A DNA stretch of 57,554 nucleotides from a bacterium HR11 (GTDB lineage Bacteria; Acidobacteriota; HRBIN11), in the NCBI GenBank assembly GCA_002898535.1, contig BEHN01000019.1, forward strand, positions 1 through 57,554, in the 5' to 3' direction. The notes beneath the pieces were generated by a model. The model was given only the letters and a program-made list of their open reading frames with translations. It was not told where the DNA came from and ran no database searches. Each line of letters opens with the position of its first letter. The stretch's first letter is position 1. The position numbers and the translations under genes were made by a program. Below, piece by piece: positions 7,521-45,380 of the stretch.

Positions 7521-7713
7521 CAGTTCGGGCATTCGGTAGCTCGGGAGTTCGGGAATTCGGCATTACGGCCGTCGGGCGATACGGTCGGTAGGAGATTCGG
7601 GCAGTCGGCCCTCCGAGCCGGGTCGCCCTATGCTGGGACTGCCCGACGGCCTGGTTCCCCTACCGCCGAGTTCCCGAACTCCCGAATTCCCGGACTCCCG
7701 AACCGAGGAGGTC
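7521..7713. repeat. TTCGGGAA-type 8-9-bp repeats between symporter and fabD
   Basis: Units such as CAGTTCGGGCATTCGGTAG and GAGTTCGGGAATTCGG face their reverse complement (CCGAGTTCCCGAACTCCCG) near 7668-7700, so the block is also an inverted repeat. The same units recur at 8668-8712 and 15500-15525. Confidence 0.7.
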
Positions 7714-7717
7714 CGCC

Positions 7718-8656
7718 GTGCAGGTCGCCGTCGTCTTCCCGGGGCAGGGCGTTCAGACGGTCGGCATGGGACGCGATGTCGCCGATCGATATCCCGAAGC
7801 CCGAGTCGTCTTTGAAGAAGCCGATCGGGCGCTGGGCTTCCCCCTCAGCCGTCTCTGCTGGGAAGGACCGGCCGAGGACTTGACCCTGACGTACCATGTG
7901 CAACCGGCCATCGTGACCGTCAGTTACGCCCTGTGGACCCTCCTGACCCGGTACGGCTCGATCCGACCGGACTACGTCGCCGGCCATTCCCTGGGGGAAT
8001 ATACGGCCCTGGCCGCCGCCGGGGCTCTCTCCTTTCCGGATACGGTCCGCCTGGTCTACGACCGGGGCCGTTTCATGCAGGAAGCCGTCCCCGTCGGGGT
8101 CGGGACGATGGCGGCCGTCCTCGGGCTTTCGGAAGAAGTCGTCGTCGAGGTGTGTAACCGCCTGAACCGGCCGGACGCCGTCGTCACGCCGGCCAACTTC
8201 AATGCCCCCGACCAGGTCGTCATCGCCGGTCACCGGCCGGCCGTCGAGGCGGCCGCCGAGGAGCTGAAACGCCGGGGCGCCCGGCGTATCGTGTTCTTGC
8301 AGGTCTCGGCCCCCTTTCATTGCGTCCTCATGAAGCCGGCCGAGGAACGGATGGCCGAACGGCTGGACCGGGTCCCCTGGCGGGACCCCTCGATCCCCTG
8401 GCTGAACAACGTAAACGCCGAACCCATCACGGACGGCTCGACGGCCCGGGAAGTCCTCAAGCGTCAGATCACGGCGCCCGTCCTGTGGACCCGGATCGTC
8501 CGGCGCCTGTGGGAGCTGGGCGTACGCACGTTCGTGGAAGTCGGGCCCGGTCGGGTCTTGACGGGCCTGATCAAGCGAATCATACCGGACGCCGAATGCG
8601 TCAACGTGAACGACCTGGAGACCCTCGAGGCGGCCCTCCGGCGGTGGCCCCGATGA
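7718..8656 (+). CDS. fabD: malonyl-CoA:ACP transacylase
   Basis: This 312-residue FabD loads malonyl groups from CoA onto acyl carrier protein to feed fatty-acid elongation. VFPGQGVQTVGMG opens the protein. The nucleophile S91 sits in GHSLGEY, and H201 in SAPFHC is the catalytic partner, the spacing known from E. coli FabD. NNVNAEPI and VGPGRVLTGLIKR are also conserved. Translation starts at GTG 7718 behind GAGGAGG. The FabG gene follows on the same strand after about 250 bases of repeat-bearing DNA. Confidence 0.95.
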   Translation: MQVAVVFPGQGVQTVGMGRDVADRYPEARVVFEEADRALGFPLSRLCWEGPAEDLTLTYHVQPAIVTVSYALWTLLTRYGSIRPDYVAGHSLGEYTALAAAGALSFPDTVRLVYDRGRFMQEAVPVGVGTMAAVLGLSEEVVVEVCNRLNRPDAVVTPANFNAPDQVVIAGHRPAVEAAAEELKRRGARRIVFLQVSAPFHCVLMKPAEERMAERLDRVPWRDPSIPWLNNVNAEPITDGSTAREVLKRQITAPVLWTRIVRRLWELGVRTFVEVGPGRVLTGLIKRIIPDAECVNVNDLETLEAALRRWPR

Positions 8657-8905
8657 ATGCGGCAACCCGGCAGTTCGGGAATTCGGGAGTCCGGGAACTC
8701 GGGAATTCGGCCGATGGGCGTAAAAGGCCAACCCGATGCGGGCGTTTCCCGACCCACATATCAGGTAGGCAAGGAGGCAGAAGGCCTGTAAGGCTGAAGC
8801 TCCGACCAGATGCGACTCCTCGTCTTCTTGTCTTCTGTCTCCTCTTCCGGGGCCGCCCATGCGCCGGACTCCCGAATGCCCGAATCCCGATTCCGGAGTC
8901 TTCCC
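8657..8905. repeat. repeat-bearing spacer between fabD and fabG
   Basis: At 8668-8712 there are TTCGGGAATTCGGGA-type units, and related CCGAATGCCCGAATCCCG units at 8872-8890. No gene is supported. The fabG frame stays open upstream, but that part lacks family similarity. Confidence 0.6.
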
Positions 8906-10796: not shown

Positions 10797-11129
10797 CGAG
10801 GGCCTCCCCAAGGGGCGCAAGATGAGGATAGAGGATACAAGATACAAGATGCAGGGTGCAAGGTGCAGGATGAGGCGCTGGGTCTCGGGTTCGGGCATTC
10901 GGGCGTTCGGCCAGCGGGCCATCTTCATCCCGGCCCCGCTCGCCCGAGCGGGGTCGCCGCTTCAGCGGGACGTCGTGGCGTCGGGACGGGTTTGAATCAG
11001 GGCCTCGGACGACAGGCTCCAGGCCCATTCGCCACTCGCTACTCGCCATTCGCCACTCGCCATTCGCCATTCACTACTCGCCATTCGCTGTTCGCTACTC
11101 GCTGTTCGCCATTCACCATCCGCCGTTCG
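10797..11129. repeat. intergenic island with heptamer, GAGCGGGG hairpin and ATTCGCC repeats
   Basis: In order: GATACAAGATGCAGGGTGCA-type heptamers (10820-10870); a near-perfect hairpin CCCCGCTCGCCCGAGCGGGG (10934-10953) with a downstream GGGACGTCGTGGCGTCGGGACG tail; then about twelve CCATTCGC/CTACTCGC units from 11025 into the 3' end of the next gene. No gene supported. Confidence 0.75.
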
Positions 11130-12149
11130 CTATTCTCCATAAATCCCGACTTTTCGGTGGCCCACCTCCCCCGGGGACCCGGCCCCCGGGACCTGAGACC
11201 GGATGGGGAGCGGCCGGCCTTCCGAAAAGGCCAGGTACAGGGCGGCCGGCAGGGCACTCAGGAGGATCACGGCCTCATACGTGACATGCGTGAGCAGGGC
11301 GACCGGCGCTTGGGCCTCCGAGCCCGTCACGGCCAGCCACGCCAGCTCCCACGTGCCCAGGTGGAGCCAGCCGTGAAGGGGGATTTCCCGACTCAGCTCG
11401 GCCGCCACCAGCGCCTGAAAGAGGGTCGAGACCGAAACGGACGGCATCCCATACGCCGTGACCCATCCGTGATATAGGACAGTCAGCCCGACGTACTTCA
11501 GGGTCACGATGGCGACCGAGAGGGCGGCCCACAGGCCCCATTGCCCCGGGGTTCGCCGCTGGAAAATCAGGGATAGACCGACCCAGGCCCACCAGCCGGC
11601 CCGAAAGCGGTCTCGGCGCATCCGGTGACGCCGCCGGAACCACGTCGGGACGAATCGGCGAAAGGAAACGCCGAGCCCGACGAGACAGGCCGTCAGGCCC
11701 CACAGGGCCAGGCCGACCTCCCACGGAAGGAACCACTGGAGATACAGGGCCGTCGCCAGGACGTCGCCCAGGCTCGCCCCGACCATGCTCGCCAGGATGC
11801 GCCGCCAGCGCATACCCGTCAGGAAACGGCTCAGGACCGGATACGTGAGGACGCCCGAGCGGAACGGCAGGAAGTCGATGGCCGCATGATGGACGTATGC
11901 GATGGCGACGACCGGCCGTCCGACCGTCGCCGGGCCGCCCAAGAGGAGCCAGTACCGCACGCCCCGCAGGCCCGTCCACAGGACGTAACATCCGGCAAAC
12001 CACCCGATGGCCGCCCAGGGCGGGCCCGGCGCTTCCCGAATCCGTCGGGTCTCGGGAAATCCGAACCACAGGGCGCCGACGGCCGCCGCCGTGACGACTA
12101 ACGGCGCCCACCGCCAGACCGGCGAGGCTCGAACCGATTCAAGTGGCAC
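11130..12149 (-). CDS. flippase-like membrane protein (LPG synthase TM / UPF0104-like)
   Basis: This 339-residue protein has about eight hydrophobic segments. In its N-terminal half, GVRYWLLLGG and FLPFRSGVLTYPVLSRFLTG resemble the arginine/proline signatures of the lysylphosphatidylglycerol-synthase membrane domain family. The family includes lipid flippase-like proteins and stand-alone proteins of unknown substrate. The start is GTG 12149, preceded by GGAGG six bases upstream; further upstream the frame runs into a heptamer repeat. The C-terminal 20 residues are polar, and the stop lies beside ATTCGCC repeats. Family assignment is moderate and function unknown. Confidence 0.6.
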   Translation of the reverse strand: MPLESVRASPVWRWAPLVVTAAAVGALWFGFPETRRIREAPGPPWAAIGWFAGCYVLWTGLRGVRYWLLLGGPATVGRPVVAIAYVHHAAIDFLPFRSGVLTYPVLSRFLTGMRWRRILASMVGASLGDVLATALYLQWFLPWEVGLALWGLTACLVGLGVSFRRFVPTWFRRRHRMRRDRFRAGWWAWVGLSLIFQRRTPGQWGLWAALSVAIVTLKYVGLTVLYHGWVTAYGMPSVSVSTLFQALVAAELSREIPLHGWLHLGTWELAWLAVTGSEAQAPVALLTHVTYEAVILLSALPAALYLAFSEGRPLPIRSQVPGAGSPGEVGHRKVGIYGE

Positions 12150-15481: not shown

Positions 15482-15820
15482 CCGACGGGTCTCCTATCCG
15501 GGAGTTCGGGAATTCGGGAATTCGGCAGGTGGGCAGGTGGGCAGGTCGGCAGATGGGTAGTTCGGCAGATGGGCAGGTGGGCAGATGGGCAGATGGGGAG
15601 GGAGGGGCCGCACTTGGATGCGGACATCTCCCCTCAGGCGGTGGGCGTCATCCGGCCGCCGTCCCGGGTAGCTCCGGATGAGGATGGCGACCATCCGCTC
15701 CCCGGGCCATCATCGGGAGGTCGCCCCTACTCCGCCTTCCCGACCCCCGACCTGCCGACCTGCCCACCTGCCGACCTGCCTATCTGCCCACCTGCCGACC
15801 TGCCGAATTCCCGAATGGCC
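15482..15820. repeat. repeat island (TTCGGGAA and GGGCAGRT octamers)
   Basis: 15500-15600 runs from TTCGGGAATTCGGG units into about nine GGGCAGGT/GGGCAGAT octamers. 15750-15815 carries the same octamers in reverse complement (ACCTGCCG, ACCTGCCC), so the two form an inverted pair around 150 bp of unique sequence. No gene supported. Confidence 0.75.
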
Positions 15821-22311: not shown

Positions 22312-22335
22312 TTCCCGATGTTTTGGGAGGGGACG

Positions 22336-23028
22336 ATGCCAGCGACGCTTCCCCTGGACGCATACGAAGCCCTGGAGGAGGAGCTGGGGAAGGAACGGGC
22401 CCGCAGGCTGATCCAGGCCCTGGAGAAGGCCGTGGACGCCGTCGTCGAGAGCAAGTGGTCTCAAGTCCGGGACGAACTCATCGCCCGGCTGGTCACGAAA
22501 GAAGAGTTTCAGGCGGGCTTGGACCACACGCGGACGGAACTGACGGCCCAGATCGGGCAGGTCCGGACAGAACTGACGGCCCGCATCGAACAGGTCCGGA
22601 CGGAACTGACGGCCCGCATCGACCGCGTCTATGCCGAGCTGAGCGCCCGCATCGACCAAGTCTACGCCGAGCTGAGCGCCCGCATCGAACAGGTCCGGAC
22701 CGAGCTGACGGCTCGGATCGAGCAAGTCCGGACGGAACTGACAGCCCGCATCGAACAGGTCCAGACAGAACTGAACGCCCGCATCGACCGCGTCTACGCC
22801 GAGCTGAGCGCCCGCATCGAACAGGTCCAGACCGAGCTGACGGTTCGGATCGAGCAAGTCCGGACGGAATTGATAGCCCGCATCGAGCAGACTGCCGCCA
22901 CCTTGGACGCGAAAATCGACCGCCTGAACATGAAGCTGAACTTTGTCCTGCTCCTGCTGCTCCTCATCGCGACCCTCTGGAACCCGGCCGTCGCCGATTT
23001 GATCCGGAAACTTTTAGGCCTCGGATGA
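22336..23028 (+). CDS. membrane-anchored hendecad coiled-coil protein
   Basis: This 230-residue protein begins DAYEALEEELGKERARRLIQALEKAVD, like the DUF1640/CCDC90 family. From about residue 66 to 185 it consists of about eleven 11-residue units of the type VRTELTARIEQ or VYAELSARIDR, then LDAKIDRLNMKL and a C-terminal membrane segment NFVLLLLLLIATLW. The 11-residue period predicts a right-handed, stalk-like coiled coil. The ATG at 22336 follows GGAGGGG. It starts 24 bases after alaS. No function is known; some DUF1640 genes neighbour toxin or transport genes. Confidence 0.8.
   Translation: MPATLPLDAYEALEEELGKERARRLIQALEKAVDAVVESKWSQVRDELIARLVTKEEFQAGLDHTRTELTAQIGQVRTELTARIEQVRTELTARIDRVYAELSARIDQVYAELSARIEQVRTELTARIEQVRTELTARIEQVQTELNARIDRVYAELSARIEQVQTELTVRIEQVRTELIARIEQTAATLDAKIDRLNMKLNFVLLLLLLIATLWNPAVADLIRKLLGLG
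22531..22890 (+). repeat. 33-bp tandem repeat inside the coiled-coil gene
   Basis: About eleven imperfect 33-bp units (CGGACGGAACTGACGGCCCG-like) encode the 11-residue repeat. Near-identical units at 22558-22624 and 22687-22756 suggest recent duplication or slippage. Confidence 0.8.
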
Positions 23029-26993: not shown

Positions 26994-27750
26994 GGGAGAT
27001 GCCCCAGGCCCGTCGCCGGCCTATTTTTAGTACCGGGTGGGCCAGTGGCGGCCCCCAAGGGACCCGCCGTCGCTTTCCGGCAACCCGTCGGGCGAAGGGG
27101 CGGGCCCGATGTGCGCGTTCCAGCCGGGCACCCGCCGTCATGCGGGCGTCTGAAAACTCACATAACAGAGCCATTTGGGAGGCGAGAAGTGCGATGGGAA
27201 GCGGAAAGGGCACCTCCACGAAAGCACGATGTTTCAGGCATTCGGCAGATGGGCAGGTGGGCAGATAGGCAGATGGGCATTTGGCAGGTGGGCAGGTCGG
27301 CAGATAGGCAGGTGGGCATTCGGCCGGTCGGGCGACGGGCGTCGATCCCCGGAACACCGGCCGTCATGCCGGTGGCTTCCGGAGAGAGCCCGCCGTCCTG
27401 CGGGCGTCATCCCCATGCACCGCCCGTCCTGGCCGGGTCGATCCCCTCTGAACACCGCCCGTCATGGCGGTGGCATCCTTCACAAGCTTGAAACATCGCG
27501 ATCGCCGGGCCACCGTTTTCCCGGATGGGAACCGCATTTCTCCCAACCGGACGGCTCTGATAATCGGGTATGCAGAAAGCCGGCTCACCGGCCTGTTTAT
27601 CCTGAACCGGTAGAGCCTGTTTCAAAACTCACCGCCGAGGCGCAGAGGACGCAGAGGATGAGGGTTTTTCTTCGATTTTTTCTCTGCGTTCTCGGCGTCT
27701 CAGCGGTGGAATGGAGTTTTTGAAATACGCTCTACGGTCGATAAGGACCC
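26994..27750. repeat. repeat island between the mglA-like and molybdoenzyme genes
   Basis: Five hairpins share a CGTCATG or CGTCCTG loop: CACCCGCCGTCATGCGGGCG (27128), CACCGGCCGTCATGCCGGTG (27355), CCGCCGTCCTGCGGGCG (27389), CGCCCGTCCTGGCCGGG (27421) and CACCGCCCGTCATGGCGGTG (27453). GGGCAGRT octamers lie at 27245-27320. An inverted repeat at 27624-27716 pairs CGCAGAGGACGCAGAG-type sequence with CTCTGCGTTCTCGGCG. No gene supported. Confidence 0.7.
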
Positions 27751-29866: not shown

Positions 29867-31063
<1,197 letters not shown>

Positions 31064-32165: not shown

Positions 32166-33038
32166 ATGAAGGTCGCCATCCTCAGCGGCGGGGACGGCTG
32201 GCACGTTCAGGAACTCCAACGGGCCTTGATCGCCCGAGGCCATGGAGCCACCCGGCTCCCCATCCAACGTCTGATCGGGCGCATCGAAGGGCCCTCGGTC
32301 CTCCACGTCGGTTCCGTCTGCTTGGACGACTGGGACGCCGTCCTCGTCCGGACCATCCCACGGGGGTCCCTCGAGCAGATTATTTTCCGGATGGATGCCC
32401 TGCACCTGCTGGAGGCCCGGGGCGTTCGGGTCCTCAATCCCCCCAAGGCCATCGAGCGCACCGTGGACAAGTACTACACGTCGGGTCTGCTGGCCCAGGC
32501 CGGCCTGCCCACGCCCCGGACGGTCGTGTGCGAGCAGTCCGACGACGCCCTCGAGGCCTTTGAGGCCCTCGGCGGCGACGTCATCGTCAAGCCCCTGTTT
32601 GGCTCGATGGGCCTCGGGATGGTCCGCATCGAGAGCCCGGACGTCGCCTACCGAGTGTTTAAAGCCCTCGAGCTGGAGCGGGCCGTCTACTATCTCCAGG
32701 AGACGATTCCCCACGGGGGTCGGGACATCCGGGCCTTCGTCCTGGGCGGTCGCGTCCTGGCGGCCATGGAGCGGGTCGCCGACGGCTGGCGGACGAACGT
32801 GGCGCAGGGGGCTCGGGTCCGCCCGGCTCGGCTGACGTCGGAGCAGGAAGCCCTCTGTCTTCGGGCCGTCGAGGTCGTCGGCGCCGAGTACGCCGGCGTG
32901 GACCTGCTACCCGGCCCGGACGGGACCTGCTACGTCCTGGAAGTCAACGGCATCCCCGGCTGGCAGGGCCTTCAGACGACGACGGACCGGGACATCGCCG
33001 CTGAGATCGTCGCCTACCTGGAGCGGACGGCCGTCTAA
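32166..33038 (+). CDS. RimK-like ATP-grasp ligase, probably in H4MPT/MFR metabolism
   Basis: This 290-residue ATP-grasp enzyme resembles RimK and archaeal MptN, which add glutamate to an acceptor carboxylate. MKVAILSGGDGWHVQELQRA is the N-terminal domain. VDKYYTSGLLAQAGLPTPRT, then VIVKPLFGSMGLGM, form the ATP-binding lid. YYLQETIPHGGRDIRAFVLG and CYVLEVNGIPGWQGLQ carry the metal-binding acidic residues and Asn. Homologues sit in methylotroph H4MPT clusters. The next genes (CitG-like, PTPS-like, FolK-MptA) make side-chain ligation of H4MPT or methanofuran the best guess. I start at ATG 32166. Confidence 0.88.
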   Translation: MKVAILSGGDGWHVQELQRALIARGHGATRLPIQRLIGRIEGPSVLHVGSVCLDDWDAVLVRTIPRGSLEQIIFRMDALHLLEARGVRVLNPPKAIERTVDKYYTSGLLAQAGLPTPRTVVCEQSDDALEAFEALGGDVIVKPLFGSMGLGMVRIESPDVAYRVFKALELERAVYYLQETIPHGGRDIRAFVLGGRVLAAMERVADGWRTNVAQGARVRPARLTSEQEALCLRAVEVVGAEYAGVDLLPGPDGTCYVLEVNGIPGWQGLQTTTDRDIAAEIVAYLERTAV

Positions 33039-33053
33039 CGGGCGATTCCCTTC

Positions 33054-33083
33054 TTTGCAGGCTTGACGATCCGCCATTAAACT
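33054..33083 (+). promoter_or_regulatory. possible promoter of the CitG-like gene
   Basis: TTTGCA (33054-33059), an 18-base spacer and TAAACT (33078-33083). The first match is imperfect. It lies between the ATP-grasp stop and the CitG-like start. Confidence 0.4.
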
Positions 33084-33176
33084 GTCGTAGAAGTCAAGAC
33101 GTAGCGACGGCGTGACGGGGCCATGCCCATGGAAAACCCCGTCACACCGTCACGTCATCACGCCGTCACTCTCTGT

Positions 33177-34049
33177 ATGCCCTACGACCCCGACACCGTT
33201 GCCGTGGCCGCTCAGCTCGCCTGTCTCCTGGAGGCCAGTGCCGAAAAGCCTGGCAACGTCACGCCGACCCGCCGATTCGAGGACCTGGACTATGAAGACT
33301 TCCTGCGGGCGGCGGCGGCCATCGGTCCCGAGATGGCCCGGGCCGGCACACGCGGGGTCGGTGAGACCGTCTGGGCGGCCGTGACGGCGACCCGACGGTG
33401 GACCCGGACGAACGTCAACCTGGGGATCGTCCTCCTGCTGGCGCCCCTGGCTCGGGCGGCCCTGTTGGGCGACCCGACGGCGGAGGGCCTCGCCCCGGCC
33501 GAGGCCCTGCGGGTCCGTCTCCGGCGGGTCCTGCGGGACCTGACCGTCGAGGACGCCCGCTACGCCTATGCGGCCATCCGGCTGGCCGCCCCGGGCGGCC
33601 TGGGGACGGTCGAACGGCACGACGTCCGGACCGAGCCGACCGTGACCCTGCGGGAAGCCATGGCGGCGGCCGCCGACCGGGATAGCATCGCCGCCGAGTA
33701 CGTGACCGACTATGCTATTACGTTCGAGCGAGCCCGACCGGCCTTACGGCAGGCCCTCGCCCGGGGCCTTTCCTACCGGCAGGCCGCCGTCCAGGTCTTC
33801 CTGGAAGTCCTGGCGGCCGTCCCGGACACGTTGATCGCTCGAAAAGTCGGCCGGCCCGTCGCCGAGGCCGTCTCGCGGCAGGCCGCCCGGGTCGTCGCCG
33901 CCGGGGGCGTCTTCACCGAAGCCGGTCGGCGGGCCCTGGCCCGACTGGACCGCCGCCTCCGCCGAGACGGCCACCGCCTCAATCCCGGTACGACGGCCGA
34001 CCTCGTCGCCGCCGCCCTCTTCGTCGTCCTCTTGGAGGATGCGGGATAG
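33177..34049 (+). CDS. CitG-family (triphosphoribosyl-dephospho-CoA synthase-like) protein
   Basis: This 290-residue all-helical protein has the CitG/MdcB family signatures: LEASAEKPGNVTPTRRFEDLDYEDFL at the N-terminus, then TNVNLGIVLLLAPLARA and LNPGTTADLVAAALFVVLLE at the C-terminus. Classical members make the prosthetic-group precursor of citrate or malonate lyase. No lyase genes are here, and relatives recur in bacterial and archaeal H4MPT/MFR neighbourhoods, so it may act in C1-cofactor synthesis. I use ATG 33177; ATG 33123 would prepend a GTCACACCGTCACG repeat-like stretch. Confidence 0.87.
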   Translation: MPYDPDTVAVAAQLACLLEASAEKPGNVTPTRRFEDLDYEDFLRAAAAIGPEMARAGTRGVGETVWAAVTATRRWTRTNVNLGIVLLLAPLARAALLGDPTAEGLAPAEALRVRLRRVLRDLTVEDARYAYAAIRLAAPGGLGTVERHDVRTEPTVTLREAMAAAADRDSIAAEYVTDYAITFERARPALRQALARGLSYRQAAVQVFLEVLAAVPDTLIARKVGRPVAEAVSRQAARVVAAGGVFTEAGRRALARLDRRLRRDGHRLNPGTTADLVAAALFVVLLEDAG

Positions 34050-34128
34050 AAGAATAGGGAAATCCCGGCTTGCATCTTGTATCCTGGATCCTGCATCCTG
34101 TATCTTGCCTATGTCCCGGAGCGTCGGG

Positions 34129-34623
34129 ATGGAACGGTTTCGCATCACCATCGCCAAAGAATACCTGGGGTTCTGCGCCGCCCACTTCATCACCTACGAG
34201 GGCCATCTCTGTGAGGCGCTCCACGGCCACAACTACCACGTCCGTATCACCCTGGAGGGACCCATCGACGAGAACTACTACGTGATGGACTTCATCCGGG
34301 TCAAGAAGATGATGAAGGGGATCTGCGACCGACTGGATCACCGGATGCTCCTTCCCATGCACAACCCCCACCTGGTCTTAGAGACGACCGAGGACCGGGT
34401 GTCGGTCCGCTATAAGCACCGGCTCTTCGTGTTTCCCCGGGAAGACGTCGTCCTCCTTCCGATTCCCAACACGACGGCCGAGATGTTGGCCCGGTACCTG
34501 TGCGAGCAGGCCCTGGCGGAGCTGGCCCGGATGAGAGCGCCGTCCCTTCAGATGATCGAGGTCGAGGTCGAGGAGGCCCCCGGCCAGTCGGCCATCTACC
34601 GGCGGGACCTGGCGGCGGGATGA
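34129..34623 (+). CDS. 6-pyruvoyl-tetrahydropterin synthase/QueD family protein
   Basis: This 164-residue T-fold protein has the zinc histidines and catalytic cysteine in place: FCAAHFITYEGH, then LCEALHGHNYHVRI (Cys-x3-HGH). VMDFIRVKKMMKGICDRLDHRML follows, and NTTAEMLARYL near the end. The family converts dihydroneopterin triphosphate to pyruvoyl- or carboxy-tetrahydropterin, or acts in pterin salvage. Thirty-five bases separate it from FolK-MptA, so a step in H4MPT pterin synthesis is more likely than queuosine synthesis, though QueD activity cannot be excluded. ATG 34129 has CGGAG upstream. Confidence 0.88.
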   Translation: MERFRITIAKEYLGFCAAHFITYEGHLCEALHGHNYHVRITLEGPIDENYYVMDFIRVKKMMKGICDRLDHRMLLPMHNPHLVLETTEDRVSVRYKHRLFVFPREDVVLLPIPNTTAEMLARYLCEQALAELARMRAPSLQMIEVEVEEAPGQSAIYRRDLAAG

Positions 34624-34657
34624 TGGGAATGGACGGAACGGCTATGCCGAGGGAGTC

Positions 34658-36124
34658 ATGGCGGAGGTGACCGTTTACATCGGCCTGGGAAGCAATCTCG
34701 GCGACCGGCGGAGCAACCTCCTCGAGGCCATCCGCCAGCTCCGCCAGAAAGTCCAAGTCGAGCGACTGTCGTCGGTCTACGAGACCGAACCGGCCTACGT
34801 CACCGACCAACCCCGCTTCCTCAACATGGTCCTCCAAGGGCGGACGGAGCTCTCGCCCCGGGAGCTTCTGGAGTTCTTGAAGGGCATCGAGCGGCGCATG
34901 GGTCGCCTGGCCTCCGAACGCTATGGCCCCCGGCCCATCGACCTGGACATCCTGCTATACGACGACCTGCGGGTCGACGAACCGGACCTGACGATTCCCC
35001 ACCCGCGATTGACGGAACGGGCCTTCGTCTTGATCCCTCTGGCCGAGATCGCCCCGGACCTGGTCCTGCCGGGTCAGACGGAACCCGTGGCCGTCCTGGC
35101 CTGCCGCGTCGAGGGCGTCGGCCGGGTCGTCCGGGTCGAGCGGGGCCTGAGCATTCGGCTCATCCGGGACGTCCAGGAAGAGCCGCCGCCCGTCCGCCTC
35201 AGCCTGACGAAGGCCGGCGTCACGGGCATCCGCCGCGTCATCCGCCTCCAGGGTCCAAACGGAGACGAGCTCTTCGAGGCCGAGATGGACCTCTACGTCG
35301 AGCTTCGGCCCGACCAGAAGGGCGTTCACATGTCCCGCTTCAGCGATACCATCGAGGAGATCTTCGGCGAGATCGAGATCGAGTCCGTCTCGACCCTGGA
35401 GCGGCTGGCCGAGCGGATCGCCCTGCAACTCTTACGGGACCAGCGGACCGTCCGGTCCGACGTCCACATCCGGGCCCGTTTCCCGCAAGAGCGCTTCACG
35501 CCCGTCTCCGGCAAGCGGACCCAGGAGCTGTACACCCTCATCGGGATGGCGGCGGCGACCCAGCGGCGGGTCGTCCACCTCGTCGGCGTCGAGGCCGAGG
35601 GCCTGATGGCCTGCCCCTGCGCTCAGGACATGATGGCCGCTTACGCCCGGGAGCACCTCGCCGAGGCCGGCTTCTCGCCCGAACAGATCGAGCGCATCCT
35701 GGCCGTCGTCCCGACGGCGACCCACAACCAGCGGGGCCGGGGGACGCTCCTGGTCGGAAGCGACGCGATCATCGACGCCCGTGACCTCGTCAGCATCGTG
35801 GAAAACGCCATGAGTAGCGAAAACTACGACCTCCTCAAGCGGCCCGACGAGCTGTTCGTCGTCGCCAAGGCCCACCGGCGGCCCCGCTTCGTCGAGGACG
35901 CCGTCCGGGAGATGATCCTCGGCCTCGTCGAGCTGTACCCGGACCTGCCCGACGACACCTTCGTCCTGGCCCGCCAGACGAACATGGAGTCCATCCACAA
36001 GCACGACGTCTACGCCGAACGCTCCGGCACGCTCGGCGAACTCCGTCGGGAACTCGCCGGCCCCGATTACGTCACGCCCCACACGACCCTCGACGCTTGG
36101 CTCCGGACCCGACTGGAACAGTAG
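34658..36124 (+). CDS. fusion of 6-hydroxymethyl-dihydropterin pyrophosphokinase (FolK) and GTP cyclohydrolase MptA
   Basis: The protein is 488 residues. Residues 1 to about 165 are HPPK: YIGLGSNLGDRRSNLLEAI, RFLNMV and YGPRPIDLDILLYDD. Residues about 185-488 are an MptA/FolE2-type cyclohydrolase: AGVTGIRRVIRL, EMDLYVELRPDQKGVHMSRF, ACPCAQDMM with its paired Cys, and VPTATHNQRGRG. MptA is Fe(II)-dependent and opens the H4MPT pterin pathway from GTP; FolK activates the hydroxymethylpterin for later condensation. One chain thus carries an early and a late step. The ATG follows GAGGGAG. Confidence 0.93.
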   Translation: MAEVTVYIGLGSNLGDRRSNLLEAIRQLRQKVQVERLSSVYETEPAYVTDQPRFLNMVLQGRTELSPRELLEFLKGIERRMGRLASERYGPRPIDLDILLYDDLRVDEPDLTIPHPRLTERAFVLIPLAEIAPDLVLPGQTEPVAVLACRVEGVGRVVRVERGLSIRLIRDVQEEPPPVRLSLTKAGVTGIRRVIRLQGPNGDELFEAEMDLYVELRPDQKGVHMSRFSDTIEEIFGEIEIESVSTLERLAERIALQLLRDQRTVRSDVHIRARFPQERFTPVSGKRTQELYTLIGMAAATQRRVVHLVGVEAEGLMACPCAQDMMAAYAREHLAEAGFSPEQIERILAVVPTATHNQRGRGTLLVGSDAIIDARDLVSIVENAMSSENYDLLKRPDELFVVAKAHRRPRFVEDAVREMILGLVELYPDLPDDTFVLARQTNMESIHKHDVYAERSGTLGELRRELAGPDYVTPHTTLDAWLRTRLEQ

Positions 36125-36606
36125 CGTGGGCAGATGGGCAGGTCGGCAGATAGGCAGATGGGCAGGTGGGCAGATGGGCAGGTCGGCAGATGGGGAGGTA
36201 GAAATGGGGACATATTTTTGCTATTCGCCATTCGCCGTTCGCTATTCGCCCTTAACCTCGGACGGTGGGAAAGGCCGACCGGACGCCACCCTTACAAACC
36301 GAACCCCTCCGTCAAGCGAGGTTTTAAGCTATGGCCTACCGGGTGACCGTTCCGGAATCCGTGGAATTTTATTCCCGGATTCCTTCCTGCTTCCTCGCGG
36401 GGATACTCGTAGACCGACCCGCAGGGGCCGTTCCGCCGCAGAGCCCCGCTCCACAGGCTTGACTTCCCGCGGAACTCGCGGTAGGGCCGTTTTCGGGCAC
36501 GCGCCCGAGGGCGGCCAGCCCGACCTCCCGTTGGTTCTCCGGGAGAGAAAATGCCGCAAAAGTCCACACAGAATACCTGCCCGGTCAGCTGCTGTCAACC
36601 CTTTAG
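36125..36606. repeat. repeat island after folK-mptA
   Basis: About nine GGGCAGAT/GGGCAGGT octamers (36128-36200), then ATTCGCC units (36224-36252) and a GTGGGAAAGGCCGACCGGACG element near 36264. From 36300 to 36606 I see no supported gene. An ATG at 36551 with GGGAG upstream gives only 26 codons. Confidence 0.65.
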
Positions 36607-36804
36607 TACGACCGGGAGGGAGATTACTTAGAAGTGACCCTCGAGCGCCGGCCTGGCTGGTGGCGCACGACGGACGACGATGCGGTGATGGTGAAAGTGG
36701 ATGAACAGGGGCGGATGATCGGCTTTTCCGTGCAGGGCCTGAGTCGGAAGGACCGGCAAGAGGTCTGCATTCTAACGACTGAGCGGGTCACGCCCGAGCC
36801 TTAG
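36607..36804 (+). pseudogene. 5'-truncated DUF2283-like gene
   Basis: The frame reads YDREGDYLEVTLERRPGWW, then TTDDDAVMVKVDEQGRMIGF and SVQGLSRKDRQEV, the typical DUF2283 pattern. These are small proteins of unknown role, often near toxin-antitoxin genes. A TAG at 36604-36606 lies directly before the Y where the family normally has three to five more residues and its Met. A GTG at 36634 (56 residues) could still start a shortened protein, but GGGAGG is about 14 bases away. I read it as a remnant. Confidence 0.55.
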
Positions 36805-36852
36805 GCCGATGGGTGCCGGGTATTCCACGCCCCCCGATCCGCATTCCGACCC

Positions 36853-38166
36853 CTATCCCGACCGTCGGGCGTACATCTGACCCAGGGCCGCCGTCCGGGC
36901 CGCCAGTTCCCGGAAGTCGACCCGCTCATAGCCGATGACGTAACTCTCCAAGCAGTCCCCCAACGGTGCCCGCCAGCGTTCGGGAATCGCCGAGGCCCCC
37001 CGGACCGTCCCGAGGATGGCCCCGACGATGCCGGCCGCCGTGTCCGTGTCCCCGCCGCATTGGACGGCCAGGACGACGCTCCGACTGAAGTCCCCTTCGC
37101 CGAACCACAGGGCCACGAGGACGGCCGCCAGGTTCGGGAACGTATGAAGCCAGTGATACTCGCCGAGAATCTCGGCCTCGACCGACGCCCACGCCTCGGC
37201 CCAGTCGGACGCCTCGGCACACCATCGCAGGACCTGCCGAGCGACGGCCATGAATTGACTCCGGGGCGGCACGAAGTGAAGGGCGATCTCGGTCAGGCGG
37301 CGGGGGTCCGACTCGACGAAGGCGGCGGCGGTCATCGCCGCAATGAACAACGCTCCGTAGACGCCCTCCGTCTCGTGGGCGATGACGGCGTCCCGGTAGG
37401 CCAGCTCGATAGCCGCTTCGGGTCGGCCCGGGGCCAGCCAGCCGCAGATCTCGGCCTTCATCATCGCCCCGACCCAATGGCTCAGGGGGTTGTCCGTCGA
37501 GCCCGACTCCGGTGGGAAAATACCCCGTCGGAGATTTTCCAGGGCGATGGCCTCGGCCGTGTAAGCCCGGGGAAGGCGCTCAAGCCACGCCAGGCCGAGC
37601 TGTTCGCTGGTGAAGTCCAGGCCGTACTGCTCGGCGACATGGAGCAGGACGAGGGGATACGCCGTGTCGTCGTTGAGGCTCGACGGCGGCGCCAGGTAGT
37701 CTGTAACAGTTCCATAGGTCTCGGCGATGCGGGCCCGGGGCCACCCCTCGACAGGACTGCCGAGGGCTCCGCCGATGACCTTTCCGAGCCAGCCGCCGAG
37801 GACCCGGTCCTCGTGGTCCCTGAAGCCATAGGCCGGAAGCTCGGGGGCTGGCGGGAGGGACGCCCGAATGTCTTTTAGGGTCACGGGCCGCTCGATGCCC
37901 GGCAGGGGGACCGGCGGGGCGTGCCGGAGGGCATGGTGGATGCAGGCCATCACGACGAGCAGACGGTCCCACTCGCCGGCCTCGTATAGCCGCTGGCCCT
38001 CCGGGAGAAGGGCCTCGGCCGCCCGGACGTCGTAGCCCTTCTGGCCCATCGCCCGAACGAGGGCCTCCGTCGGACGGACGACGACCCCCGTATCGGTCAC
38101 GAGCTCCCAACGGCGGCGGATCTCCTCCACTCGCTTTGACCGTTCCTCCATCCCCGACCGTTCCAT
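36853..38166 (-). CDS. ADP-ribosylglycohydrolase family protein
   Basis: This 437-residue protein belongs to the ARH/DraG family, which removes ADP-ribose from proteins or small molecules with two Mg ions. The N-terminal 130 residues are an extra helical region. The core begins EDRVLGGWLGKVIGGALGSP, with SSLNDDTAYPLVLLHV as the first metal site. WVGAMMKAEICGWLAPG follows, and CGGDTDTAAGIVGAILG is the second metal site. It is transcribed against the C1 genes around it and shares the 38167-38323 region with the cyclo-ligase gene. The substrate is unknown. I start at the ATG at 38166. Confidence 0.9.
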   Translation of the reverse strand: MERSGMEERSKRVEEIRRRWELVTDTGVVVRPTEALVRAMGQKGYDVRAAEALLPEGQRLYEAGEWDRLLVVMACIHHALRHAPPVPLPGIERPVTLKDIRASLPPAPELPAYGFRDHEDRVLGGWLGKVIGGALGSPVEGWPRARIAETYGTVTDYLAPPSSLNDDTAYPLVLLHVAEQYGLDFTSEQLGLAWLERLPRAYTAEAIALENLRRGIFPPESGSTDNPLSHWVGAMMKAEICGWLAPGRPEAAIELAYRDAVIAHETEGVYGALFIAAMTAAAFVESDPRRLTEIALHFVPPRSQFMAVARQVLRWCAEASDWAEAWASVEAEILGEYHWLHTFPNLAAVLVALWFGEGDFSRSVVLAVQCGGDTDTAAGIVGAILGTVRGASAIPERWRAPLGDCLESYVIGYERVDFRELAARTAALGQMYARRSG

Positions 38167-38190
38167 AGGCGTCCTGGGGCATTTCGGAAA

Positions 38191-38218
38191 TTCCCATCGG
38201 CGGCAGTTTCTATATAAT
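38191..38218 (+). promoter_or_regulatory. promoter of the cyclo-ligase-ftr operon
   Basis: TTCCCA (38191-38196), a 16-base spacer and a perfect TATAAT (38213-38218). The AT-rich core TATATAATAT could also serve the divergent ADP-ribosylglycohydrolase gene. Confidence 0.6.
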
Positions 38219-38323
38219 ATCGTCGGTGGTGGGCATTGGGGAGCGGGGTCCTGAAGGGGTCGACCCCGAACGCCGTACACCTACCACCCAAGACCTAACA
38301 CCGATTGCCTCAGGAGTCGGACG

Positions 38324-38959
38324 ATGGACGAGACGACCGTCAAGGACGAGGCCGCTTTAAAAGAAGAGCTCCGGAAGCGCATCACGAAGGCCCGCGTGGC
38401 CGAGCCCGACAAGGACGAAAAGAGCCGGGTCATCATGGAAAAGGTCTTCGCCCTGCCGGCCTTCCAGGAGGCCCGGGTCGTCCAGTTTTACATCGACGCC
38501 GCCAGCGAGGTCCGGACCCGAAGCTTCATCCCCAAGGCGATGGAGCTGGGTAAAAAGGTCATCGTCCCCTACTGCACGAAGGACGAACAGGGCGACGACA
38601 TCCTCAGGCTCTTCCCCCTGACGAGCTTCGACGAACTGGAGGTCGGGGCCTTCAACATCCTGGAGCCCAAGGTCAGCCTCCGGGACTTGCCCGACCGGCA
38701 GTGGGACGTCCGGGACGTCGACTTCATCATCGTGCCCGGCGTCGTCTTCGACCGGCGGGGCGGCCGGATCGGCCACGGGTGGGCGTACTACGACAAGCTG
38801 TTGCGTCTGGCCCGGCCCGACTGCTGGCTCGTCGGCATCGCCTACGAGTGCCAGGTCGTGGACTACGTCCCGATGGGGCCCCACGACGTGTACATGGACC
38901 TGGTCGTGACGGAGCAGAACATCTATGAGGGCTTGCGGCTGAAGGAGCGGCGTCGATGA
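38324..38959 (+). CDS. 5-formyltetrahydrofolate cyclo-ligase-like protein
   Basis: This 211-residue protein has the MTHFS fold: VVQFYIDAASEVRTRSFIPKA, GKKVIVPYC, DFIIVPGVVFDRRGGRIGHG and WAYYDKLLR. The usual GRGGGYYDRLL loop is altered to GHGWAYYDKLL. Classical enzymes convert 5-formyl-H4F to 5,10-methenyl-H4F with ATP. Here its stop overlaps the ftr start by four bases (ATGA), so the partner may be H4MPT or a formyl-H4MPT repair/salvage step rather than folate; that is inference. CAGGAG precedes the ATG. Confidence 0.9.
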   Translation: MDETTVKDEAALKEELRKRITKARVAEPDKDEKSRVIMEKVFALPAFQEARVVQFYIDAASEVRTRSFIPKAMELGKKVIVPYCTKDEQGDDILRLFPLTSFDELEVGAFNILEPKVSLRDLPDRQWDVRDVDFIIVPGVVFDRRGGRIGHGWAYYDKLLRLARPDCWLVGIAYECQVVDYVPMGPHDVYMDLVVTEQNIYEGLRLKERRR

Positions 38960-39894
38960 GCCGGTCTCTCCTGGACCTCGTCGAGGACACCTACGTCGAG
39001 GCCTTTCGGAGCGTCTATGCGGCCGTCCTGATCACGGCCCGGGACAAGACGTGGCTCGACCATGCCGTCGCCGCCGTCACGGGCCACGCCTCGAGTACGA
39101 TCATGTGCGACTGCGAGGCCGGCCTCGACCGTTACGTCTACGAAGGGACGCCGGACGGCCGCATCGGGGCCATCGTCCAGTTCCACGTCCCCAAGTTCCG
39201 GAAGGACCACGTGCGGGCCTTGGAACTCACGCTGATCCGCCGCCTCGGCCAGGACGTCCTGACGTGTCCGACGGCCGCCGTCTGGAACGTCCTCCCGACC
39301 CAGAACGCCTTTCCTATCGGCCGGAAGTTGGCCTTCTTCGGCGACGGCTACCAGGAGCGGGTCCGCCTGTACGACCGGGACGTGTGGCAGGTCCCCGTCA
39401 TGGGCGGCGTGTTTCTGGCTGAGGAGCTGATCGGCTACGCCGACGGCCTCATGGGCGGGATGCTGTGGCTGTTGGCCGAAGACCTCGACGCCGGTTTGGC
39501 CGCCGCCGAGAAGGCCGTCGAGGCGATCCGCCATGGGGCGCCCGGCGTCATCATGCCGTTTCCCGGCGGCATCACGTGGTCCGGCTCGAAGGCCGGGAGC
39601 CGGTACAAGTTCCTGTTCGCCTCGACCAATCACCCCTTCTGTCCGACCCTGCGGGACCGCATCCCGGACTCCCGCGTGCCCGAGGGCGTCCGGGCCATCC
39701 TGGAGATCATCATCAACGGGGAGAGCGTCGAGGCCGTCGCCCGGGCCATGCGGGTCGGCATGCAGGCCGTCCGGGACTGTCCGGGCCTCGTCCGCATCTC
39801 GGCGGGCAACTACGGGGGCCGCCTGGGGAAGACCAAGATTTACCTGCGGGAGTTGGTGCAAGGGATAGAGGGAGGTAGGGAGATAGGGAGATAG
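38956..39894 (+). CDS. ftr: formylmethanofuran:tetrahydromethanopterin formyltransferase
   Basis: The 312-residue protein is close to the family length (about 300). Ftr (FhcD in methylotrophs) moves the formyl group between methanofuran and N5 of H4MPT. DTYVEAFRSVYAAVLITARD, STIMCDCEAGLDRYV, QDVLTCPTAAVWN, FFGDGYQERVRLYDRDVW, IMPFPGGITWSGSKAGSRYK and STNHPFCPTLR match the conserved order. In bacteria it normally works in the Fhc complex (FhcABCD); A, B and C are not in this window. The C-terminal 12 residues enter GGGAGATAGGCAG repeat DNA, so the natural end may have drifted. Confidence 0.94.
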   Translation: MSRSLLDLVEDTYVEAFRSVYAAVLITARDKTWLDHAVAAVTGHASSTIMCDCEAGLDRYVYEGTPDGRIGAIVQFHVPKFRKDHVRALELTLIRRLGQDVLTCPTAAVWNVLPTQNAFPIGRKLAFFGDGYQERVRLYDRDVWQVPVMGGVFLAEELIGYADGLMGGMLWLLAEDLDAGLAAAEKAVEAIRHGAPGVIMPFPGGITWSGSKAGSRYKFLFASTNHPFCPTLRDRIPDSRVPEGVRAILEIIINGESVEAVARAMRVGMQAVRDCPGLVRISAGNYGGRLGKTKIYLRELVQGIEGGREIGR

Positions 39895-40317
39895 GCAGAT
39901 GGGCAGTCGGCAGATGGGCAGATAGGGAATCGCCGTTCGTCATTTTCTATGCTGGGAGCGCCGGTATCCTTGCCGGCCGACGGACAAGCGGGAAGTATAG
40001 GAAGGGAGGTAGGGTTCCCTAAGAGTCTATCTCACAAATCCATCTCCCTATGGGAGAGACCTGGAAGAGGGTCTTCGTTTCTACTCCCTTTGCCCGCTGG
40101 GAGAGAGGCATCGAGGGTAAGAGCCCGGGCATCGGATTGATGAGATCCCATTCGCCATTCGCTCCCTGGGGTCTCGGCGATGGCTTTTCCCCTGGCCCAT
40201 CTGCCGACCTGCCCACCTGCCCAATGCTGGGAAAAATCGGCCTCCCCGAAGGGTCGGAAGGGCCGAATCCATCCGGATTCACGGGCCGAACGGCCCTGTG
40301 ATTTCAGGTCCCCCGCC
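39895..40317. repeat. repeat island between ftr and mfnB
   Basis: GGCAGATGGGCAG octamers (39894-39925), a CGCCGTTCG unit, reverse-complement CCATCTGCCGACCTGCCC octamers (40197-40222), and at 40218-40290 a dispersed element whose reverse complement matches 18420-18490. No gene supported. Confidence 0.65.
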
Positions 40318-41028
40318 ATGAAGCTCCTCGTCAGCGTGGTCGACCCGGAAGAAGCGCAGACGGCCCTCGCCGCCGGGGTCGACATCTTGGACGTCAAGAA
40401 CCCGGCGGAAGGCTCCCTGGGGGCGCCCTCGCCGGAGACCGTCCGGCGTATTCGGGCGATAACGCCGCCGGTCGTCCCCCTCAGCGTGGCCATCGGAGAC
40501 ATGCCGAACCTGCCGGGCACGGCCGCCTTAGCCGCCTATGGAGCCGCTCGCCTCGGGGCGACTTACGTGAAGGTCGGCCTGTGGGGCGTCTCGACGGAGG
40601 CCGAGGCCTGGACCCTCCTCCGAGCCGTCCAGGCGGCCTGTGCCGAATTCCCGACCGTCCGGGTGATCGCCTGCGGATATGCCGATGCCGACCGGCTTCC
40701 CCACCGCCCCCTGCCGCCCCTCTGCCTGCCGGCCGTCGCCCGAGCCGCCGGCGTGCACGGTTGCATGCTGGATACGGCCCTCAAGGACGGCCGTCGGCTG
40801 TGGGACTTCCTGTCGGAGGCCGACCTCCGGGCTTTCATTGCGGCGGCTCATGAGGCCGGGCTTCTCGTGGCCCTGGCCGGCTCGCTTCAAGCGGAGGACC
40901 TCCCCCGCCTCCGGGGCCTCGGGGCCGACGTCGTCGGTGTGCGCTCGGCCGCCTGTCGGGACGGTCGCCGGACCGGTCCCCTGGACGTCGAGCGCCTCCG
41001 TCAGCTCCGGGCGCTCTCGTGGGGGTGA
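40318..41028 (+). CDS. mfnB: (5-formylfuran-3-yl)methyl phosphate synthase (DUF556), methanofuran pathway
   Basis: This 236-residue TIM-barrel enzyme condenses two molecules of glyceraldehyde 3-phosphate to the furan phosphate from which methanofuran is built. Schiff-base lysine K27 lies in LDVKNPAEGSLGA, and the second lysine K156 in MLDTALKDGR, matching positions 27 and 155 described for the Methanocaldococcus enzyme. LPGTAALAAYGAARLGATYVKVGLWG and VGVRSAAC are conserved. Its presence shows the organism makes a methanofuran-type cofactor, which ftr needs. The start at 40318 has only a weak ribosome-binding site. Confidence 0.94.
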   Translation: MKLLVSVVDPEEAQTALAAGVDILDVKNPAEGSLGAPSPETVRRIRAITPPVVPLSVAIGDMPNLPGTAALAAYGAARLGATYVKVGLWGVSTEAEAWTLLRAVQAACAEFPTVRVIACGYADADRLPHRPLPPLCLPAVARAAGVHGCMLDTALKDGRRLWDFLSEADLRAFIAAAHEAGLLVALAGSLQAEDLPRLRGLGADVVGVRSAACRDGRRTGPLDVERLRQLRALSWG

Positions 41029-43525: not shown

Positions 43526-43659
43526 CTCGGGCCTCCATGCCTCCGACGCGAGATGCAGGATACAAAAGGCAGGATGCAGGATGCAAGATGCAGGGTGCGG
43601 GATCGCCGGAAACCCGCATGGTCATTTCCGGTCTCGGGCCCCGGGCCAGGGGGAAGACC
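43526..43659. repeat. heptamer repeats upstream of gatC
   Basis: 43550-43600 carries GAGATGCAGGATACA, GGCAGGATGCAGGATGCA and similar 7-bp units. No gene supported. Confidence 0.65.
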
Positions 43660-44086
43660 GAATGGCGAGTAGCGAGTAGCGAGTGGCGAGTGGCGAATGG
43701 CGAACGGCGAGTGGCGAATAGCGAGTAGCGAATGGCGAGTGGCGAATAGTTTGTAGGGTCTGGGATCGATATCGGACCCCGGCTCGCCGTCCCGCCGTCA
43801 CGACGCCACGTTGAAATAGCGACCCCGCTCTTGCGAGCGGGGCTTGGATCCCTTTTCGGTCATTCGGGCGTTCGGCCCCTTCACGACGAATTTCCCGGGT
43901 CCCGGACGTCCGGCATCAATCCGACCATGGACCATAGGCCACAGACCATGGACCGGCTTGGGCCCCGGGGGTCTATGGTCCATGGTCCATGGTCTGTGGT
44001 CTGTGGTCTATGGTCCATGGTCGGATTGATGAGACCGGTTCTATTCTCCCGTTCCCGATCCCCATCCCGCATCCTGGATCTTGCAT
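43660..44086 (+). repeat. left arm of a long inverted repeat flanking the zap cassette
   Basis: Blocks in order: GCGAGTGGCGAAT units, GGATCGATATCGGACCCCGG, the CGCTCTTGCGAGCGGGG hairpin, GGTCATTCGGGCGTTCGGCC, CCGGACGTCCGGCATC, a nested palindrome of CCATGGACCATAG/CTATGGTCCATGG units, then GGATTGATGAGACCGGTTCT. All return in reverse order and strand at 44948-45380 with few mismatches. Confidence 0.88.
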
Positions 44087-44947: not shown

Positions 44948-45380
44948 ACCCCGACCAGGATGCAGGATGGGGATCGGGAACGGGAGAATAGAACCGGTCT
45001 CATCAATCCGACCATGGACCATAGACCACAGACCACAGACCATGGACCATGGACCATAGACCCCCGGGGCCCAAGCCGGTCCATGGTCTGTGGTCTATGG
45101 TCCATGGTCGGATGGATGCCGGACGTCCGGGAACCCGGGAAATTCGTCGTGAAGGGGCCGAACGCCCGAATGACCGAAAAGGGATCCAAGCCCCGCTCGC
45201 AAGAGCGGGGGCGCTATTTCAACGCGGCGTCGTGACGGCGGGACGGCGAGCCGGGGTCCGATATCGATCCCGGACTTTACAAACTATTCGCCACTCGCTA
45301 CTCGCCATTCGCCATTCGCCATTCGCCATTCGCTACTCGCTATTCGCCACTCGCCACTCGCCGTTCGCCATTCGCCCTAT
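44948..45380 (-). repeat. right arm of the long inverted repeat
   Basis: Reverse complement of 43660-44086 block by block: GAACCGGTCTCATCAATCC, the CCATGGACCATAGACCACAG palindrome, GATGCCGGACGTCCGG, GGCCGAACGCCCGAATGACC, the CCCCGCTCGCAAGAGCGGGG hairpin, TCCGATATCGATCC and about twelve ATTCGCC/ACTCGCC units. Confidence 0.88.

Follow-up and report, generated by a model that had tools for sequence, protein, structure and literature searches.

Methanopterin- and methanofuran-linked one-carbon genes of bacterium HR11, an acidobacterium with a predicted selenocysteine-containing formylmethanofuran dehydrogenase

Results

The window analyzed here, a stretch of 57,554 nucleotides (contig BEHN01000019.1) from the acidobacterial bacterium HR11 (assembly GCA_002898535.1), carries at positions 32166-41028 a cluster of genes for the archaeal-type one-carbon carriers tetrahydromethanopterin (H4MPT) and methanofuran. 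Very probably, this cluster is one of three gene groups that jointly encode a complete module for one-carbon oxidation via H4MPT and methanofuran, the last enzyme of which is a formylmethanofuran dehydrogenase (Fwd) with a predicted selenocysteine (Sec) in its FwdB subunit. The two other groups lie on a second contig, C1, so that the set for H4MPT-linked formaldehyde oxidation (fae, mtdA/B, mch, ftr, fwd, and mptG) is complete in one genome. A preliminary description of the window had proposed that both carriers are made and used by this bacterium, and the presence of mch, fwd, fae, mtdB, and mptG in the same genome supports that proposal.

HR11 is represented by a metagenome-assembled genome (MAG) of 2.99 Mb in 49 contigs that is 95.4% complete. 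Outside the window it was examined by searches for single families rather than by whole-genome annotation, and profile scores were judged against each profile's own cut-off (TIGRFAM/NCBIfam-type bit scores; Pfam E values). The relatives considered were two members of the same genus, G001 and SKYB104 (G002, "Acidobacteria bacterium isolate SKYB104," NCBI record JANXAA010000057.1, a contig that the G002 stretch matches letter for letter), and three further Acidobacteriota, G022, G109, and G112. The window and contig C1 belong to one genome, as is evident from the tetranucleotide composition of the window relative to other contigs (r, 0.94 to 0.98) and from species-specific intergenic repeats that it has in common with other contigs, C1 included. 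The cluster also occurs in the independent MAG SKYB104, with proteins 85 to 94% identical. Chance similarity or misbinning of the window is ruled out by this second copy, by the strong E values, and by the matching composition and repeats.

In the window, the cluster opens on the plus strand with an MptN-like ligase of the RimK ATP-grasp family (32166..33038; Pfam RimK, 4e-30), of the H4MPT:glutamate ligase type. It scores 203 bits against the RimK family, over the cut-off, and 263.7 bits against the MptN profile NF040720, under the cut-off of 350 bits; homologues that are 52 to 55% identical adjoin fwd/mch genes in Bathyarchaeota and Acidobacteriota. The CitG-family protein that follows (33177..34049, plus strand; Pfam CitG, 3.5e-73) is assumed from its gene context to act in H4MPT synthesis, and its homologue in G109 adjoins mptN and mptG. 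Next comes an enzyme of the 6-pyruvoyltetrahydropterin synthase (PTPS) family (34111..34623, plus strand; Pfam PTPS, 2.4e-25), which among solved structures is closest to 1y13 and 2a0s, both of the Plasmodium type. Its hybrid motif CEALHGH conforms to CExxHGH, the signature of PTPS-I/III hybrid enzymes (PMC5041015). The PTPS of P. falciparum yields 6-hydroxymethyl-dihydropterin (PMC2229834), which is also the predicted product of the window enzyme. The adjacent gene encodes FolK (HPPK) fused to an MptA-type GTP cyclohydrolase (34658..36124, plus strand; folK, 144 bits with a cut-off of 54; MptA TIGR00294, 291 bits with a cut-off of 220). The cyclohydrolase domain is MptA and not FolE2, against which it reaches 132 bits with a cut-off of 215, and the same fusion, 93% identical, is present in SKYB104. 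Together, PTPS and the FolK-MptA fusion could plausibly supply the pterin head.

The cluster is then interrupted by a minus-strand gene for an ADP-ribosylglycohydrolase (36853..38151; Pfam, 2.8e-53). On the plus strand it resumes with 5-formyltetrahydrofolate cyclo-ligase (MTHFS; 38324..38959; TIGR02727, 135 bits with a cut-off of 85) and Ftr2, a formyltransferase of the formylmethanofuran:H4MPT type (38956..39894; TIGR03119, 330 bits with a cut-off of 293), the two genes overlapping by 4 bp (ATGA). It ends with MfnB, the (5-formylfuran-3-yl)methyl phosphate synthase (40318..41028, plus strand; Pfam, 1.8e-74). Codon scoring supports the starts at 32166, 33177, 34111, 34658, 38324, 38956, and 40318. 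The preliminary description had listed MptA-FolK, PTPS, RimK-like, CitG, MfnB, and Ftr genes, all of which are there with strong profile matches, and had credited MfnB with both catalytic lysines, the motifs of which (DVKNP and YVKVGL) indeed align with MJ1099 (4rc1/4u9p); its list was correct as far as it went but omitted MTHFS and the ADP-ribosylglycohydrolase.

On contig C1, one group (C1:276044-283537) comprises fae, genes for a pterin dehydratase and a DHPS-like protein, mtdB, an mfnF-like gene named from sequence reading alone, and an ATP-grasp gene. The other (C1:371645-383586) comprises mfnD-like and hisA-like genes, mch, ftr, mptG, a DUF447 gene, fwdC, fwdA, fwdB, and fwdD. Scores over the respective cut-offs were obtained for Mch (430 bits), FwdA (719 bits), FwdC (279 bits), Fae (259 bits), and MptG (RFAP synthase, 170 bits, TIGR00144), and the MtdA/B-type Mpt_N profile also has a match over its cut-off in the genome. 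Thus, fae, mtdB, mch, and mptG, which had been reported missing, are absent from the window but all present on contig C1. Likewise, fhcABC had been reported missing; canonical Fhc was not found in the genome, but its place is filled by Fwd, encoded by fwdCABD. The preliminary description would have been overturned by a genome without homologues of mch, fhc, or mptG, whereas Mch, Fwd, and RFAP synthase all score over their cut-offs. Between ftr and mch lies a HEPN and nucleotidyltransferase gene pair of the toxin-antitoxin type (C1:374758-375544), which is also found in G001.

HR11 encodes two pyrroloquinoline quinone (PQQ) alcohol dehydrogenases, and such enzymes are also present in its genus. 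Both HR11 proteins have an additional Asp two residues past the catalytic Asp (WDYDGVNE and WDWDAENE), which we take to be the mark of lanthanide (XoxF-type) enzymes. They appear XoxF-like by this motif, an assignment that does not set them apart from other PQQ alcohol dehydrogenases by tree. One of the genes is followed by that for a MoxJ-type protein and then by that for a cytochrome. A MoxJ-like protein fused to cytochrome c is encoded at C1:385491-386453, and two related sorbosone-dehydrogenase-like proteins (PQQ type) are encoded at window positions 29876-31063 and at C1:384081-385205, each near one of two one-carbon clusters.

On this gene content, the window group would make the carriers, with FolK-MptA, PTPS, and the MptN-like ligase acting on the pterin and MfnB on the furan. 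A XoxF-type dehydrogenase would convert methanol to formaldehyde, which Fae would load onto H4MPT; MtdB and then Mch would take the one-carbon unit to formyl-H4MPT; the contig C1 Ftr would pass the formyl group to methanofuran; and Fwd, with Sec at the Mo/W ligand of FwdB, would oxidize formyl-methanofuran to CO2.

By sequence, this terminal enzyme is a true formylmethanofuran dehydrogenase and not the usual bacterial hydrolase Fhc. FwdB scores 514 bits against TIGR03129 (cut-off, 328) and 345 to 390 bits against solved Fwd B subunits, and the B subunits of Fwd and Fhc split in the tree with 100/100 support. The N-terminal [4Fe-4S] motif CTFCGCVC is kept, and FwdD is present (Pfam Molydop_binding, 6e-13; 84.5 bits against NF042908, an archaeal-type profile with a cut-off of 175 that it does not reach). 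Canonical Fhc can be ruled out for this complex, given FwdD, the ligand site of FwdB, which is lost in proteobacterial FhcB, and a score of 57 bits against FhcB (6s6y_B). Two gammaproteobacterial MAGs (L053 and L058) have tandem operons, one of the catalytic Fwd type with a Cys ligand and one for canonical Fhc; relative to the acidobacterial genes, FwdB of the Fwd operon is 56% identical and Ftr 64%.

The fwdB frame contains a single in-frame stop, a TGA at residue 116 (DSHTSL-U-HGPTE), downstream of which it is intact. This position aligns with the Cys or Sec Mo/W ligand of archaeal FwdB, and the best solved match, 9sfi_Q, has an X at the equivalent site. The TGA is found at the ligand position in HR11, G001, and G022, genomes that are 77 to 98% identical; the orthologues of G109, G112, Bathyarchaeota, and two gammaproteobacterial Fwd operons carry a Cys there. 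The genome encodes tRNA-Sec (75 bits, anticodon TCA) and SelB (296 bits with a cut-off of 242). A hairpin resembling a selenocysteine insertion sequence (SECIS), with an AGGU loop, lies 3' of the TGA; G022 retains it with an AGUU loop and two changes at paired positions that preserve the pairing. We predict that FwdB is a selenoprotein with Sec at the Mo/W ligand. A published study reports Sec-containing FmdB from planctomycete P2 and from two unclassified bacteria (PMC4807772); with this precedent, Sec-FwdB would therefore be a known trait in a new phylum, as far as the literature examined shows.

The Ftr of the window is an Ftr by profile but not the fwd-linked one: it is the second of two Ftr proteins in the genome, 49% identical to each other. 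A tree of the family, as the preliminary description had proposed, groups the contig C1 Ftr with fwd-linked Ftrs; apart from these, Ftr2 falls in a clade of 32 proteins that comprises the window protein, that of SKYB104, and 30 others, nearly all from Planctomycetota. Support for the clade is 98% in the full tree (Shimodaira-Hasegawa-like approximate likelihood ratio test) and 100/98 in a thinned, careful tree. MTHFS is encoded directly upstream of Ftr2 on the same strand in 17 of the 22 planctomycete genomes with Ftr2, as it is in HR11 and SKYB104; no other neighbor is conserved among the Ftr2 loci compared.

Elsewhere in the window, intergenic gaps are rich in short tandem arrays with units of 7 or 8 bases (GGTCTAT, CCATTCG, GGCAGATG, and CGGGAATT), located at 7666-8711, 11025-11140, 15521-15806, 27237-27324, 36127-36194, 43659-43745, 43970-44022, 45010-45062, and 45286-45376. 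Some of these words recur on contigs C1, C2, C14, C17, and C18, whereas the short segments of relatives that were examined, some from the same genus, did not contain them. An inverted repeat of about 100 bases (43930-44085 and 44955-45060) contains GGTCTAT/GACCATA arrays and lies on either side of a ZapA-like gene and a short gene for a coiled-coil protein. Tandem repeats of 33 bases at 22531-22890, within the gene at 22318-23028, encode a coiled coil.

Discussion

The conserved pairing of Ftr2 with MTHFS can be read in two ways. Ftr2 may be an ordinary second H4MPT-using Ftr, one that works in different conditions, for example, or together with a different Fwd/Fhc partner, and its position next to MTHFS may be ancestral and devoid of joint function. 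We hold this to be a serious possibility, if somewhat short of an even chance. It is favored by a score over the Ftr equivalog cut-off and by the 60 core positions that are kept in both Ftr types, E245 of the Methanopyrus kandleri enzyme included. It is harder to reconcile with the retention of MTHFS while every other neighbor changed and with the persistence of Ftr2 beside a second, FhcD-type Ftr in 20 of the 22 planctomycetes. The changes that run through the clade also argue against it: an inserted PxFxK stretch, replacement of R22 by E (A in the acidobacterial pair), and Trp171 in all 32 proteins, changes that are compatible with an altered acceptor.

More tentatively, Ftr2 and MTHFS may form a formate-free bridge linking the methanofuran pool to that of folate, common to Planctomycetota and this acidobacterial genus. 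Ftr2 would move the formyl group between formyl-methanofuran and tetrahydrofolate (H4F), giving 5-formyl-H4F, which MTHFS would convert with ATP to 5,10-methenyl-H4F. The pair would thus stand in for formate-tetrahydrofolate (formate-THF) ligase where the formyl group leaves as CO2 and not as formate. Such a bridge adds to the oxidation-module explanation and is compatible with it. The product of Ftr is an N5-formyl pterin, matching the type of substrate that MTHFS uses, which is established biochemistry. Besides the conserved adjacency and the companion FhcD-type Ftr, the bridge is favored by the fact that the paired MTHFS is the only one in HR11, in SKYB104, and in each planctomycete genome that has the pair. 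In addition, formate-THF ligase was not found in the three members of the genus or in 18 of the 22 planctomycetes with Ftr2, but G022, G109, and G112, for which no Ftr2 turned up, all have it.

Several observations make us doubt the bridge. The anticorrelation with the ligase is weak and phylogenetically confounded (Fisher P = 0.07), and Mariniblastus lacks both Ftr2 and the ligase. The ATP loop of the window MTHFS is altered: it reads GHGWAYYDK in this genus, where planctomycetes have GHGKGYYDK. In five planctomycetes the genes for Ftr2 and MTHFS are apart. Among the Acidobacteriota, MTHFS is present in HR11 and SKYB104, both with Ftr2, but a related protein (56%) also occurs in G109 without Ftr2; none was found in G001, G022, or G112, G001 being fragmented, so that a gap is possible there. 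As the sole MTHFS of these genomes and kin to the unpaired G109 protein, the paired enzyme may be a mere housekeeping neighbor. MTHFS-family paralogues with other roles exist (table in PMC5041015). In the literature examined, which left out several key papers, there was no paper joining formyltetrahydrofolate cyclo-ligase, formylmethanofuran, and tetrahydromethanopterin formyltransferase.

As for the direction of the pathway, oxidation of methanol to CO2 would be the simplest reading; it is favored by the presence of Fae, of methanol dehydrogenases that look XoxF-like, and of an MtdB of the NAD(P) type. The reverse, in which CO2 is fixed via Fwd as in the archaeal-type Wood-Ljungdahl pathway, seems improbable to us. 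FwdB does look catalytically equipped for CO2 reduction, and methanogens use Fwd in that direction, but the same three enzymes point to oxidation. A reading of the fwdB TGA as a genuine stop, from pseudogene formation or sequencing error, with a nonfunctional complex, is very hard to believe: the lone stop in an otherwise intact frame could be so read, but the idea is rejected because the TGA is conserved across three genomes, with Cys at the exact site in orthologues, an intact downstream frame, and the Sec machinery at hand.

Some points weigh against an oxidative module with Sec-FwdB. The evidence comes from a MAG that is about 95% complete. The preliminary description had suggested looking for mfnDEF, and while mfnD-like and mfnF-like genes are on contig C1, no MfnE was seen in the genome stretches read. 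Nor were FwdE or the ferredoxin subunits FwdF and FwdG seen in the fwd operon. In which order the pterin steps run is uncertain, because MptA yields a cyclic phosphate that is not the known substrate of PTPS. The SECIS-like hairpin is only mildly better than shuffled sequences (z, -2.3 with flanks and -0.6 without), and reductive or two-way use of the pathway may be formally possible.

In the methylotrophs studied so far, Fhc frees the methanofuran-bound formyl group as formate, and formate-THF ligase returns formate to folate. A genome in which neither canonical Fhc nor this ligase was found, and which has a predicted Sec-Fwd and the Ftr2-MTHFS pair, therefore points to methylotrophy that burns one-carbon units directly to CO2. 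The pair gives a concrete proposal for how the folate pool could then be fed. 5-Formyl-H4F is inert in most organisms; if the bridge is true, it would become an intermediate of a main metabolic pathway. Furthermore, Fwd-type enzymes now extend among bacteria to Acidobacteriota of several families, a point relevant to the origin of Fhc from Fwd. The pathway as a whole is already known from bacteria; the novelty lies in the conserved pairing of Ftr2 with MTHFS and in the predicted Sec form of Fwd within this phylum.

Compared with the proteobacterial fae-mtdB-mch-fhcABCD system, HR11 has in common Fae, MtdB, Mch, Ftr, FwdA/FhcA, FwdC/FhcC, MptG, and MfnB, as well as MfnD-like, HisA-like, and DUF447 genes and methanol dehydrogenases. 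It differs in that its FwdB retains the cysteines for the Fe-S cluster as well as the metal ligand, predicted to be Sec, at the site lost from FhcB, and in the presence of FwdD. With the archaeal W/Mo Fwd/Fmd enzymes it shares FwdA, FwdB, FwdC, FwdD, and the Sec/Cys ligand, in line with the FwdB scores given above, and it departs from them in its bacterial host, the operon without visible FwdE/F/G, and the coupling to Fae/MtdB. The Sec-FmdB of planctomycete P2 (PMC4807772) is likewise a bacterial Fwd with Sec and fmdD/fwdD, in a different phylum. The Hakuba actinobacterium, with its fwdDBA-ftr-fwdC operon, also has a bacterial Fwd with fwdD, but its ligand is Cys and its genome is without H4MPT synthesis genes (PMC7325909), whereas HR11 appears to have full H4MPT synthesis and has the Fae/MtdB/Mch route. 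The window PTPS has CExxHGH in common with the PTPS-I/III hybrids of Plasmodium and the bacterial PTPS-III (PMC2229834 and PMC5041015), but its gene lies in a methanopterin cluster and not in a folate or queuosine cluster. Finally, Ftr2 belongs to the same fold family as FhcD/Ftr and keeps its core positions but forms a clade apart from all fwd/fhc-linked Ftrs, linked instead to MTHFS.

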